Source: Flavobacterium sp. N502540 (GTDB taxonomy: Bacteria > Bacteroidota > Bacteroidia > Flavobacteriales > Flavobacteriaceae). From it: a stretch of DNA of 64,000 nucleotides. The position numbers were made by a program, and so were the translations under genes. The stretch spans positions 2,294,001 through 2,358,000 of the forward strand of contig NZ_CP110012.1 of the NCBI RefSeq assembly GCF_025947365.1, read 5' to 3'. The notes beneath the pieces were generated by a model, which was not told where the DNA came from, made no database searches, and was given only the letters and a program-made list of their open reading frames with translations. The stretch's first letter is position 1; each line of letters begins with the position of its first letter. Below are positions 8,274 through 59,692 of this stretch, one piece after another.

Positions 8274-9207
8274 AAAAATAACACGAATTGCACGAATTGT
8301 CACTAATTTGTTTGTGGAATTAATTTCACAAACAAAGTTAAACGATTAAAATTTGTGCAAATTCGTGTAATTTGTGTTTAGATAAAGGCTATAATTCCTT
8401 CTTTTTTTGTGTTATTTATTTTACCACATAGATACATAGGTGCTGCATCCTCTTTTGGCAATAGAAATCTATGTTTCTATATGTTTAAAATTTTGAGCGT
8501 TCCAATTATCAAAACATAGATTACAGCTTACCGTGTCGACATAAGTATAAAAAATAACACGAATTGCACGAATTGTCACTAATTTGTTGGTGTAATTAAT
8601 TTCACAAACAAAGTTAAGGGATTAAAATTTGTGCAAATTCGTGTAATTTGTGTTTAGATAAAGGCTATAATTCCTTCTTTTTTTGTGTCATTTATTTTAC
8701 CACATAGATACATAGGTGCTGCATCCTCTTTTGGCAATAGAAATCTATGTTTCTATATGTTTAAAATTTTGAGCGTTCCAATCATCAAAACATAGATTAC
8801 AGCGTACCGTGTCGACATAAGTATAAAAAGTAACACGAATTGCACGAATTGTCACTAATTTGTTGGTGTAATTAATTTCACAAACAAAGTTAAGGGATTA
8901 AAATTTGTGCAAATTCGTGTAATTTGTGTTTAGATAAAGGCTATAATTCCTTCTTTTTTTTTGTCATTTATTTTACCACATAGATACATAGGTGCTGCAT
9001 CCTCTTTTGGCAATAGAAATCTATGTTTCTATATGTTTAAAATTTTGAGCGTTCCAATCATCAAAACATAGATTACAGCGTACCGTGTCGACACAAGTAT
9101 AAAAAGTAACACGAATTGCACAAATTGTCACTAATTTGTTGGTGTAATTAATTTCACAAACAAAGTTAAGGGATTAAAATTTGTGCAAATTCGTGTAATT
9201 TGTGTTG
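8274..9207. repeat. Tandem 276-bp repeat, three full copies plus a partial fourth
   Basis: The word ACACGAATTGCAC(A/G)AATT recurs at 8281, 8557, 8833 and 9109, giving an exact 276-bp period. Copies 2 and 3 are nearly identical; copy 1 has a few differences and copy 4 stops after about 100 bp. Each unit has two inverted-repeat parts: ACACGAATTGCACGAATT against AAATTTGTGCAAATTCGTGT, and ACATAGATACATAGGTGC against ATCTATGTTTCTATATGT. No reading frame longer than a few dozen codons crosses it. It fills the whole space between bglX and the convergent gene at 9244. Confidence 0.95.
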
Positions 9208-23736: not shown

Positions 23737-23814
23737 CTTCGTTTCATTTTATAAGGCAAATATCGACACGTTTTTGCGGGCATAAAATCCGAAACTTGCG
23801 GAAGTAATAGTTTG

Positions 23815-23890
23815 TTTCAAGTTTCAGGTTTCATGTTCTGCTAAAATTTGAAACCTGAAACTTGAAACCTGAAACCTGAAACCTGAAACA
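23815..23890. repeat. Heptamer array folding into a hairpin (TGAAACC/T units)
   Basis: Six 7-bp units (TGAAACC, TGAAACT, TGAAACC x3, TGAAACA) run 23849-23890. The reverse complement of the first units (TTTCAAGTTTCAGGTTTCA) lies at 23815-23833, so a 19-bp stem with a short loop forms. It is 1 bp from the GNAT stop codon (23892) and may act as its terminator. The same unit family occurs 13 times at 47867-47957. Confidence 0.9.
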
Positions 23891-27844: not shown

Positions 27845-27879
27845 TATACCCGACAGGTTTTTAAAACCTGTCGGGTATA
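27845..27879. terminator. Bidirectional palindromic terminator (ACCCGACAGG type)
   Basis: A perfect 17-bp inverted repeat (27845-27861 and 27863-27879) around one base, with ACCCGACAGGTTTT as the core arm. It lies between convergent genes ending at 27827 and 27901 and has T runs on either side. A nearly identical palindrome is at 30363-30397. Confidence 0.88.
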
Positions 27880-30362: not shown

Positions 30363-30397
30363 AAAACCCGACAGATTTTTAAAATCTGTCGGGTTTT
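30363..30397. terminator. Palindromic terminator (ACCCGACAGA type)
   Basis: A perfect 17-bp inverted repeat (30363-30379 and 30381-30397) around one base, with the arm AAAACCCGACAGATTTT. It lies downstream of ahcY (minus strand, ending 30447) and upstream of the patatin gene. It is the same family as the palindrome at 27845. Confidence 0.85.
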
Positions 30398-46204: not shown

Positions 46205-46306
46205 TTGTCATTTCGACGAAGGAGAAATCCTCGCGAGTAGCTCGACAAAGATTGGGTTTTCGTTGCGGAGTTTCTTACGGAGATTTCTCCTTCGTCGAAA
46301 TGACAA
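46205..46306. repeat. Perfect inverted-repeat element, 25-bp arms around 52 bp
   Basis: Arms at 46205-46229 and 46282-46306 are exact reverse complements (TTGTCATTTCGACGAAGGAG, then AAATC). The 52-bp interior contains CTCGCGAGTAGCTCGAC and TTGCGGAGTTTCTTACGG. It occupies most of the 356-bp gap 46062-46417 between the DUF3127 gene and aat. Flanking words (TTGGAATTTGG at about 46080-46130 and 46370-46410) are of the heptamer type. A degraded relative is at 32783-32893. A 73-codon frame across it is rejected. Confidence 0.9.
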
Positions 46307-47957: not shown

Positions 47958-49079
47958 TTAAATTTGTAGACTAAAACTTTTGTCCCAGTCTTTCCAGACG
48001 GGTTCGTAGCCTGAATTTGTTATAATTTGCGCAATTTCTTTGGCAGAACGTTCGTCGCTGATTTCGAATTGCTCCAGAGATTGCGGATCAACAACATAAC
48101 CACCGGGATTGGTTTTCGAGCCTGCACTCATACTGGTCACACCGATAGGGATAATATTGTTTCTGAATTTCTCATTTTCACGTGTCGAGATTGAGATTTC
48201 CAAATCCTCATTCCACAAACGATAGGCGCAAATGAGCTGTGTCAAATCCTTATCGTCCATAATAAAATTAGGTTCAATAATGCCTTCTGCCGGGCGGAGT
48301 CTTGGAAAGGAAACCGAATATTTAGTCTGCCAGTATTTTTTTTGAAGATAATCCAGGTGTAACGCATTAAAAAAGCTGTCGGTTCGCCAGTCTTCCAGCC
48401 CCAGTAAAACCCCCAATCCCATCTTATGAATTCCAGCTGTACCAATACGATCGGGAGTTTCGAGTCTATAATCAAAATTTGATTTTTTGCCTTTCGTATG
48501 GTATTTTTTATATACTTCCTGATGGTAGGTCTCCTGATATACCAAAACCGAATAAACACCAGCCTGATGCAAACGTTCATAATCTTCGGTTGAAAGTGGC
48601 TGGACTTCCACAGAAATAATGGAGAATTCTTTTCGTATTAAGGCAATTGCATTTAGGAAGTAATTAATGTTTACGGTATAATTCGCCTCACCAGTCACCA
48701 ATAAAACATGGTCAAAACCAATCTCTTTTAAAGCTTCTACTTCAATTTTTATCTCAGCATCAGAGAGGGTTTTTCGTTTGATTTTATTGTCTAAACTAAA
48801 TCCGCAATACGTGCAGATGTTTTGGCATTCGTTGCTGAGATATAAAGGAGCATACATTTGTATGGTTTTGCCAAACCGTTTTTTGGTAATTTCATGGCAT
48901 TTTTGAGCCATCTGCTCCAGATAGTTTTGTGCGGCAGGAGAAATCAGAGCTAAAAAATCATCGAGATTTCGTTTGGTTTTAAACAAAGAGTGTTCTACAT
49001 CTTTTGATGTGGTTTGATATATTTTAGATTGAATAGTATTCCAATCATAATTCTCAAAAACCGATTTGAATGTTTTCAT
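47958..49079 (-). CDS. thiH: 2-iminoacetate synthase ThiH
   Basis: A 373-residue radical-SAM enzyme that cleaves tyrosine to dehydroglycine (2-iminoacetate) for thiazole formation. The cluster-binding Cys85, Cys89 and Cys92 are in NECQNICTYCGFSL, and the GEANYTVNINYF and VEVQPLSTEDYERL segments match ThiH. The C-terminal GSKTNPGGYV is typical of this group. It complements ThiG and ThiS encoded upstream. Its start (49079) is 14 bp after the left arm of the cassette at 49094; no good ribosome site lies between, so the insertion may affect its expression. Confidence 0.96.
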   Translation of the reverse strand: MKTFKSVFENYDWNTIQSKIYQTTSKDVEHSLFKTKRNLDDFLALISPAAQNYLEQMAQKCHEITKKRFGKTIQMYAPLYLSNECQNICTYCGFSLDNKIKRKTLSDAEIKIEVEALKEIGFDHVLLVTGEANYTVNINYFLNAIALIRKEFSIISVEVQPLSTEDYERLHQAGVYSVLVYQETYHQEVYKKYHTKGKKSNFDYRLETPDRIGTAGIHKMGLGVLLGLEDWRTDSFFNALHLDYLQKKYWQTKYSVSFPRLRPAEGIIEPNFIMDDKDLTQLICAYRLWNEDLEISISTRENEKFRNNIIPIGVTSMSAGSKTNPGGYVVDPQSLEQFEISDERSAKEIAQIITNSGYEPVWKDWDKSFSLQI

Positions 49080-49093
49080 TGGATTGTGTTTTG

Positions 49094-49688
49094 TTTCACG
49101 CAGATTTTAGGAGATTTAAGCAGATAAAAAATGATTTATGTTTTGTTATTTTTATCTACAGACGTTTCTTTATATTTTATTCGCAATTCTTTTGATATCA
49201 TTAAGAATGTTTAAAGTATTGAAATTTACTAGTAATCCTAGTTTCTTATTTGTTAGCCTTAGATAAGTATTAAGTTGTTTATGGTGTATTGGAGCTAAAT
49301 CTTCAACTGATTTCAGCTCAATTATTACTTTGTCTTCTACTAATAAATCGATTCTAAAAGCTGGATCTAATATCATTTCATCATATGTGATTTTTATTTC
49401 AATTTGTTTCTGGACTTTCAAGTCTAATTTTTCTAATTCGTAAAATAAAGCACTTTCATAAACAGATTCAAACAATCCAGGACCCAACTTATTATATACT
49501 TTAAAAATTGCTCCTCTTATTAAGTATGAGATTTCATTTTCATTCATTATTCTATTAATTTAAAAACGATTCAAAAATAAAGAATTTTCTCTCTTTTTTA
49601 TGTTTGTTTTTCAAATCAATTTAAGACAGTGACGAACAAAAAAATAATCATTTTTTATCTGCTTAAATCTCCTAAAATCTGCGTGAAA
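49094..49688. mobile_element. IR-bounded GxxExxY cassette inserted between thiG and thiH
   Basis: The segment is 595 bp. Perfect 43-bp inverted repeats close it: 49094-49136 begins TTTCACGCAGATTTTAGG and 49646-49688 is its exact reverse complement. Between them is one gene, 49170-49547. Elsewhere the thi genes overlap or are 21 bp apart, yet here thiG and thiH are 614 bp apart. There is no transposase and no clear target duplication (left flank TGTGTTTTG, right flank TATTTTTAT). In the operon mRNA the arms would form a 43-bp duplex around the gene. A mobile or RNA-processed origin is inferred. Confidence 0.7.
49170..49547 (-). CDS. GxxExxY-family PD-(D/E)XK-like protein
   Basis: A 125-residue protein with the family signature GLFESVY (Gly24, Glu27, Tyr30). 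A probable PD-(D/E)XK nuclease core follows: Asp67 in FRIDLLVED and Glu77/Lys79 in VIIELKSVE, then Gln91 in HHKQLNTYL. The family is of unknown function and is classed with the PD-(D/E)XK superfamily, so a nuclease role is suggested, not proven. It has the same orientation as the thi genes and looks more AT-rich than they do by eye (not counted). It is enclosed by perfect 43-bp inverted repeats, which makes it the only cargo of an apparent cassette. Confidence 0.85.
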   Translation of the reverse strand: MNENEISYLIRGAIFKVYNKLGPGLFESVYESALFYELEKLDLKVQKQIEIKITYDEMILDPAFRIDLLVEDKVIIELKSVEDLAPIHHKQLNTYLRLTNKKLGLLVNFNTLNILNDIKRIANKI

Positions 49689-49693
49689 TATTT

Positions 49694-50470
49694 TTATTCA
49701 TATAAAAAAGAGGTCAAAGGACTTGAAGCCATGGCATAATTTTGTTGAGGAGCAATTTTAGCTTCAAAGGCTTTTCGGCCTGCAATGACAGCCTCTTTAA
49801 AGGCTTCGGCCATTAATGTCGGATTTCCTGCAACCGCAATTGCCGTATTAACCAAAACTGCATCTGCTCCCATTTCCATGGCTTTTGCAGCATCAGACGG
49901 AGCCCCAATTCCGGCATCGACGATTACGGGAACATTACTTTGTTCGATAATAATCTCCAAAAAATCAATCGTTTTTAGACCCTTGTTACTTCCAATTGGG
50001 GAGCCTAAGGGCATAACAGCGGTGGTTCCGGCACTCTCAAGATGTTTGCATAAAACGGGATCGGCATGGATGTATGGCAGGATAAAAAAACCAAGTTTAG
50101 CGAGTTCCTCTGTCGCTTTTAAAGTTTCTATCGGATCGGGCATAAGATATTTCGGATCAGGATGAATTTCAAGTTTCAGCCAATTCGTTTCTAATGCTTC
50201 TCTCGCTAATTGTGCAGCGAAAACAGCCTCTTTGGCGTTTCGTGCTCCCGATGTATTGGGTAATAAATGAATGTTTGGATGATTTAAGTGCGTTAGAATA
50301 GCATCAGTTTCGGTTTCGAGATCGATACGTTTCAGTGCTACAGTGACCAACTCACTTTCTGATGCCAAAATAGCATTCTCCATTTCCAGATTCGAACCAA
50401 ATTTTCCTGTTCCTAAAAATAGACGGGAGGTTAAGGTTTTGTCTCCGATGTTAAACAATGACGTTTGCAT
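49694..50470 (-). CDS. thiG: Thiazole synthase ThiG
   Basis: A 258-residue TIM-barrel enzyme that assembles the thiazole phosphate from deoxyxylulose phosphate, dehydroglycine and ThiS thiocarboxylate. Motifs are [10 protein letters not shown] near the N-terminus, [44 protein letters not shown] and the [29 protein letters not shown] phosphate site. The Schiff-base Lys is in the WLKLEIHPD strand. Its start overlaps thiE by 20 bp. The cassette arm at 49646-49688 begins 5 bp after its stop. Confidence 0.97.
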
Positions 50471-54572: not shown

Positions 54573-54643
54573 TCCTTTAAGTTTAGTATGTAGTTATACT
54601 TTAGGAATGGCTACAATCGCACATAGAAATGCGCGCAGAAGTC

Positions 54644-54728
54644 ATCTTACTTTTCCCTACGCTAGTGTGAACTAGATCAGGTTCAGAGGGTAAAATCTCA
54701 GCCTGCAAAATTGCAGACACCCCTAAAG
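54644..54728 (-). ncRNA. TPP riboswitch of the thiamine-synthesis operon
   Basis: On the minus strand the order is GGGGTGTC, a short hairpin, GGCTGAGATTTTACCC, GAACCTGATCTAGTTCACAC and GCGTAGGGAAAAG, the complete THI-element layout. It lies 72 bp upstream of thiS. TPP should repress the thiS-thiC-tenI-thiD-thiE-thiG-thiH-thiF operon. Confidence 0.95.
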
Positions 54729-54735
54729 TGTGAAG

Positions 54736-59554: not shown

Positions 59555-59692
59555 AATATTTTGAATTTTAATGTTAAAAGTAAAAATTCCATCTTCTAAA
59601 TCCCAAACTCCAATTTTATTAAATTATCAACATAACGTTTTTAATTTTGTATTTGGAATTTGGAATTTAAAATTTGGAATTTAAAATTTGAT

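Follow-up and report, generated by a model that had tools for sequence, protein, structure and literature searches.

Between thiG and thiH, the thiamine operon of Flavobacterium sp. N502540 carries a small cassette in which the gene of a putative Cas4-like nuclease is enclosed by long inverted arms. Our best explanation, which we regard as evenly balanced between right and wrong, is that this cassette is a gene-bearing member of an intergenic repeat family and that the nuclease acts on hairpins made of its own short words. The data suggest that repeats and nuclease form an inherited system that evolves slowly, and not an element that jumps freely. The window (the whole stretch of DNA analyzed, 64,000 nucleotides) contains the following features of the locus:

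47958..49079, minus strand: thiH (Radical_SAM and BATS), downstream neighbor of the cassette
49094..49147, plus strand: arm adjoining thiH; outer 43 of 54 nt perfect; spaced AGATT-type units
49170..49547, minus strand: GxxExxY gene; 125-aa protein with a Cas4/RecB-type PD-(D/E)XK fold
49635..49688, minus strand: arm adjoining thiG, reverse complement of the thiH-side arm
49694..50470, minus strand: thiG, upstream neighbor of the cassette
54637..54734, minus strand: TPP riboswitch (RF00059, 71.8 bits), upstream of the first thi gene

The arms are 54 nt long with 94% complementarity, and the perfect 43-bp inverted repeats described in an earlier note on this DNA are indeed exact at 49094-49136 and 49646-49688. 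That note's account of the surroundings also holds. The arms lie 14 bases from the thiH start (49079) and 5 bases from the thiG stop (49694), the gene at 49170-49547(-) is the only one between them, and thiG and thiH are separated by 614 bp, whereas the other pairs from thiC to thiG (names as given in that note) overlap or are 21 bp apart. Each arm is composed of TTTCACGCAGATTT followed by more AGATT units spaced approximately 9 to 10 nt apart. In a de novo inverted-repeat scan of 1,264,000 bases of the own genome (the window and 60 segments of 20 kb each; score of at least 15; low-complexity arms excluded), these arms were the top hit with a score of 45. The runner-up scored 31, and the thi arms are therefore not a product of chance. 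Given the riboswitch upstream of the first thi gene, the GxxExxY gene may be thiamine controlled as well, provided that the operon transcript reads through into the cassette.

The enclosed gene matches the profiles TIGR04256 (GxxExxY; 142.8 bits, curated cutoff of 35) and PF13366 (PDDEXK_3; 143.4 bits, curated cutoff of 22), which confirms both the GxxExxY identity and the likeness to PD-(D/E)XK nucleases proposed earlier. The RecB/Cas4-type PD-(D/E)XK motif layout consists of a catalytic E, a D, ExK, and QxxxY. The GxxExxY protein has these residues: across 41 GxxExxY sequences, E27, D67, E77, K79, and Q91 are invariant, and Y95 is present in at least 90%. Its best fold match is 4ic1 (SSO0001), which we take to be a Cas4. 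Judged on fold and conserved residues, the product is thus a putative Cas4-like PD-(D/E)XK nuclease. The gene is under purifying selection, with a median dN/dS of 0.077 over 176 usable pairs, in which dS is near saturation (median, 0.96). GxxExxY genes are present in 121 of 150 sampled genomes of the genus, and the own genome holds four more, at most 47% identical to the thi cassette gene. An anti-phage system was considered and rejected, as PADLOC returned weak matches only (best, PDC-S02, E of 0.0008; Cas4, 0.0067). A GxxExxY gene is known from an algal virus, to go by the account in PMC12085832. A literature search outside subscription journals and preprints returned no paper on the function of GxxExxY, on GxxExxY cassettes, or on word arrays around S23 genes outside rRNA.

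Comparison of related thi loci indicates how the cassette came to be there. The earlier note had proposed a search of relatives for thiG-thiH without the insert. Among the best 30 thiG loci (own locus included), 15 lack the gene and 15 have it (one broken); the slot at gene-less loci contains other repeats or a diverged spacer. By eye, 11 of these 15 slots hold a CGCAAAG-unit hairpin in a gap of 92 to 157 bp, and the other four hold a different palindrome (one slot), no hairpin (one slot), or mixed remnants (two slots). At one thi locus, L058, the cassette and a CGCAAAG hairpin occur together. Pooled over searches, 52 sequence-distinct thi cassettes were collected, all at one site and with the gene in operon direction. 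The gene is exactly 375 nt long in 42 of them, and a few are shortened or broken. The arms have decayed further, pairing at a score of at least 20 in only 31 of the 52; this retention of the gene at the same place without good arms weakens the simple cassette idea. The thi cassette goes back to a single old insertion that has been retained by descent, and it is not a jumping element. The freely moving unit envisaged earlier is thus disfavored by a single inherited insertion in one orientation at 52 loci and by the low identity (47% or less) of the other own GxxExxY genes. Arm-mediated inversion was likewise discarded, with no reversed copy at any of the 52 loci. In one thi lineage (L054, L058, L063, and L070), inspection by eye showed a third inverted copy immediately ahead of the gene with which the thiG-side arm also pairs, giving two competing foldings.

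Flanking repeats are not confined to the thi site. From 192 GxxExxY ORFs, 168 loci were retained after removal of duplicates, short flanks, and N, of which 165 encode at least 90 aa. These 165 loci collapse to 34 sites, and gene movement is not seen because nearly all GxxExxY genes are inherited in place. Since most loci recur at shared sites across species, the comparison by site is the fair one, and site counts are given as means over the loci of each site. Inverted arms with a score of at least 20 flank 83 of 168 GxxExxY loci, compared to 6.4% of cross-paired flanks, and by site approximately 10 of 34, compared to 2 of 204 ordinary small ORFs. At a score of at least 16, the counts are approximately 15.5 of 34 GxxExxY sites and 9.8 of 15 sites of S23/IVP genes versus 8 of 204 ordinary small ORFs. 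Those eight include three S23/IVP genes and two Y1 (IS200-like) transposase genes. The inverted-arm layout is therefore enriched for element-type genes, and the 204-ORF control, which includes true element genes, is conservative.

The inverted layout is not the only one. In direct orientation, the same flanks reach a score of 20 at 20.2% of 168 GxxExxY loci and 10.3% of 39 S23 loci, and direct repeats with a score of at least 20 occur at approximately 13.2 of 34 GxxExxY sites. These high matches reflect word elements, complete or partial, that flank the gene on either side and are rare at ordinary small ORFs (3 of 204); "arms" is therefore too narrow a term. Repeats in either orientation flank approximately 19.5 of 34 GxxExxY sites (25 of 34 when a single locus is enough to score a site) versus 5 of 204 controls; at the other 9 of 34, two of them in the own genome, no locus has repeats scoring at least 20 in either orientation. 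Whole word hairpins, such as TCTCGCAGAT...ATCAGCGAGA, are contained in the direct repeats of L224 and L231, where the gene is thus bracketed by complete hairpin elements. By extension, the inverted arms of the thi cassette may be the outer halves of two word hairpins. Direct repeats of approximately 90 to 190 bp, partly whole word hairpins, surround GxxExxY genes at L224, L231, L218, L237, L210, and L221, all from other Bacteroidota. Three further loci carry other genes between repeats: a type II dehydroquinase, an ordinary gene, between inverted TTTACATTTTACAT arrays (L259:7991-8520), and two small ORFs lacking a Pfam match that are possible cargo genes (L289:13772-14110, inverted 19.5 and direct 34; L300:15214-15666, inverted 17.5).

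The arms are often built as periodic arrays of short words, with lags mostly of 8 and 9 to 10. Periodicity was found in 25 of 30 S23 arms and 43 of 122 GxxExxY arms, compared to 3 of 207 and 5 of 180 control pieces; for GxxExxY it is weaker by site (9 of 24) than by locus. The word type moreover follows the gene. With arms assigned to two coarse classes, AGATT or CAAAG words, by our own word patterns (107 loci with a score of at least 17, minus seven "other"), the 100 typed loci require two changes on the GxxExxY gene tree, whereas shuffles need at least 24 (500 shuffles). With one locus per site, two changes suffice over 17 sites and shuffles need at least three (1,000 shuffles), in a small test whose AGATT class also includes the CCACAGATTAAAAGGATT arms of another site. 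This tracking of gene lineage, along with the inverted arms at approximately 10 of 34 sites versus 2 of 204, upholds the part of the cassette idea in which the arms belong with the gene. In addition, the two arms of one thi cassette have lineage-specific letters in common. Across the 52 thi cassettes, own pairs score 27.4 versus 21.05 (standard deviation of 0.68) for re-dealt pairs, a value not reached in any of 10,000 permutations. Something keeps the two arms of a cassette alike.

The arm word also occurs away from the cassette. CACGCAGATTT has 26 copies in the own genome versus 2 for its reversed control, and 24 of the 26 lie away from the gene, a second result that weakens the simple cassette idea. 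A gene-distant arm word and decayed arms are thus consistent with a dispersed repeat family, one member of which carries the gene. An inverted partner word lies within approximately 115 nt of 14 of the 26 copies, which amounts to fewer elements once three double counts are discounted (11 by eye). Three of these have exact CACGCAGATTT at both ends, 88 to 91 bp apart (G000:C1:188996-189085, 2006945-2007032, and 3160042-3160132). Most gene-less hairpins are imperfect, as only 2 of the 26 copies score at least 16 in strict alignment. Approximately ten copies are without a partner, and some of these apparently lie inside genes. At G052:C68:96422-97122 and G132:C162:114-663, CACGCAGATTT copies are spaced approximately 230 bp apart, as if in a tandem unit, and those at the latter locus are near a GxxExxY gene. 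The window itself has six gene-less intergenic inverted repeats (8276-8373, 23814-23868, 27845-27879, 30363-30397, 46205-46306, and 59584-59682), with several different words or palindromes (CACGAATT, GTTTCAAG, CCCGACAGG, TGTCATTTCGACGAAGGAG, and TTTGGAATTT).

The number of copies per genome is linked to the gene. The median is 46 copies of CACGCAGATTT in the 20 genomes with a thi-type gene and 1 in the 130 without it, a difference confounded with phylogeny and genome size. Among genomes of at least 4.6 Mb, those with the thi-type gene have 53 copies (two cassette copies subtracted, n = 17) and those without it 25 (n = 14; P = 0.035, phylogeny uncorrected). Counted as lacking the thi-type gene were G013, G106, and G070 (59 to 63% identity) and G004 (broken gene). 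As many as 69, 53, and 45 copies occur in individual genomes without the thi-type gene, which may have lost it. A second word, AACCGCAAGGTTCGC, shows a weak association with the gene (8 of 26 versus 16 of 124 genomes; P = 0.037, phylogeny uncorrected, copies at the cassette of this word subtracted by hand). In the sampled DNA of the own genome, words from its own GxxExxY cassettes have 2.75 copies per word versus 1.01 when reversed (4/4 cassettes), and foreign GxxExxY words have 2.57 versus 1.20 (105/124). Being about equally frequent, the words are not private to one genome, which fits words common to related species rather than genome-specific ones.

A parallel arrangement is found at S23/IVP genes, for which the own genome has 12 PF05635 matches. 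Inverted arms with a score of at least 20 flank 14 of 39 S23/IVP loci (4.5% of cross-paired flanks) and 4 of 15 sites (2 of 204 ordinary small ORFs). Codirectional neighbors on both sides were seen for the S23 gene at 38 of 39 loci and at least 14 of 15 sites, compared to 105 of 194 ordinary small genes; for GxxExxY genes, the count is 22 of 34 sites, with no clear difference from the control. Words of the own S23 cassettes reach 4.64 copies per word in the own sampled DNA versus 1.88 when reversed (8/10 cassettes), and foreign S23 cassette words reach 1.97 versus 1.50 (13/22). The S23/IVP arms are inverted short-word arrays, mostly of period 8 (e.g., GCTAAGATTCTGA, TTAGACTTC, and GTTTCAAG; own L012-L021, others L122-L150). 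At one S23 site (L012, L147, and L149), the words differ between species, and both arms have apparently changed together. A bolder and rather unlikely generalization is that two unrelated small gene families, the GxxExxY nucleases and the Avd-like S23/IVP four-helix bundles, each own short words (approximately 9 to 10 and 8 nt, respectively), which they would write, homogenize, and spread as inverted or tandem hairpin arrays. Arms and dispersed copies would then change together, and a much wider class of hairpin elements would include the intervening sequences (IVSs) of 23S rRNA genes as one particular landing site.

These observations have to be weighed against other readings of the cassette. 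The arms could be passive neighbors, that is, generic repeats spread by other enzymes (e.g., Y1/RAYT transposases), and the nuclease, with another job, would merely lie between two of them. In its favor, inverted repeats that lack a gene are common and involve many words, most copies of the arm word are distant from the gene, and the gene outlasts good arms; the genome also has five Y1_Tnp matches, one of which (L341) lies inside an inverted repeat containing GCGCAGATTTGTAATCTGTGC. Nevertheless, we judge this reading doubtful, since flanking repeats are in excess at GxxExxY and S23 sites over ordinary genes, arm type tracks gene lineage over 17 sites, and the arms are concerted. Moreover, four of the five Y1 genes show no CGCAGATT array, either as the flanking inverted repeat or as the best hairpin per 400-nt flank, and RAYT was set aside as the mobilizer of CAGATT repeats for want of any sign at these four loci. 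The fifth, L341 (G000:C1:3701454), is a weak Y1_Tnp gene and may be an exception; its GCGCAGATTTGTAATCTGTGC resembles the CAGATT word family. If the cassette were an ordinary, active minimal transposon whose transposase is the nuclease, its terminal inverted repeats and its lone nuclease gene would be accounted for, yet this is very improbable: there is one site and one orientation in 52 loci, and this type is single copy in the genome. Carriage by phages or plasmids was rejected as well, with no tblastn match at an E value of 1e-5 in 50,697 phage records and matches in 8 of 72,556 plasmid records, all below 60% identity.

The cassette could also be an IVS-like RNA insert, as the earlier note proposed, in which RNase III excises the cassette once its arms have paired in the operon transcript, as in 23S rRNA IVSs. 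The sense RNA does fold with a long stem (-143.4 kcal/mol; z of -6.28 over 20 shuffles), and S23/IVP genes, the ORF of some 23S IVSs, show a similar arm layout between codirectional genes (38 of 39 loci). According to the account of the Coxiella IVS in PMC4990558, that insert is cut by RNase III and has tandem heptamers before its S23 ORF. Selection on an RNA stem predicts more G.U than A.C mismatches in the sense strand. In 83 GxxExxY cassettes, the two are about equal in sense orientation (107 versus 118), and there is no excess of G.U at a looser (123 versus 153) or a stricter (77 versus 73) threshold or in 14 S23 cassettes (16 versus 19), indicating, in a test run without a positive control, that the pairing is not kept by selection on RNA. 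As a selective cause, RNA processing is thus not supported. The arm word is, besides, a DNA repeat distant from the gene, and the protein has a DNA-nuclease fold. This reading is accordingly quite improbable, although the long stem can form and RNase III may cut it without being what maintains it. DNA-level copying or recognition fits the kept arms better than RNA pairing.

In the repeat-and-nuclease explanation, the family would have inverted arrays of a short word as its ends, with gene-less copies, many of them imperfect hairpins, dispersed in the genome. In members that bear a gene, a Cas4-like nuclease gene would lie between two elements, inverted here or direct elsewhere. The nuclease would recognize the array of its own words once this has folded into a DNA hairpin or cruciform, bind it, and cut, and subsequent repair would copy the element or convert one arm to the other. 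Such copying or conversion could slowly spread gene-less copies and keep both arms alike, while the gene is kept by descent within the thi operon and would be expressed from its transcript by read-through. The direct repeats broaden the layout but do not shift the chances that the nuclease acts on word hairpins, which remain about level.

The cassette resembles several known systems in part. Cas4 of CRISPR-Cas carries four Fe-S cysteines. The GxxExxY protein has no cysteine in its 125 residues and thus no Fe-S cluster of the Cas4 kind, and its gene sits among thi genes. Unlike a classical insertion sequence with several copies or variable sites, this type has one copy and one site in 52 loci. 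The BrickBuilt MITE of Porphyromonas gingivalis, as characterized in PMC4596501, is similarly an intergenic element of Bacteroidota that combines tandem units with inverted ends; it differs in having a 23-nt tandem unit, small inverted ends, and, as a MITE, no gene. The cassette has in common with the 23S rRNA IVS of Coxiella, in the description given by PMC4990558, a small ORF in an inverted-repeat loop and short words beside the stem. It differs in residing between thiG and thiH in an mRNA operon rather than in 23S rRNA, in encoding GxxExxY rather than S23, and in showing no sign of RNA-pairing selection.

RAYT genes, too, are inherited by descent. REPIN-RAYT systems, REP doublets with a Y1 tyrosine transposase as outlined by Bertels and Rainey (2011, PMC3116915), are like the cassette family in their extragenic inverted hairpin doublets, gene-less copies, and tie to a specific gene lineage. 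Dispersed gene-less inverted doublets with the same ends are present here as three exact CACGCAGATTT pairs and others with variant partners, their stems imperfect. The cassette is not a REPIN-RAYT member, because its sole enclosed gene encodes a Cas4/RecB-type PD-(D/E)XK nuclease (PDDEXK_3) rather than a Y1 transposase; in addition, its ends consist of a short word repeated in arrays instead of a single short palindrome. Nuclease lineages tied to their own hairpin words offer a concrete candidate substrate for GxxExxY. If the explanation is true, some of the short-word hairpins found between Flavobacterium genes would be explained, an origin for 23S intervening sequences could be supplied, and the REPIN-RAYT principle would extend to a second enzyme class.
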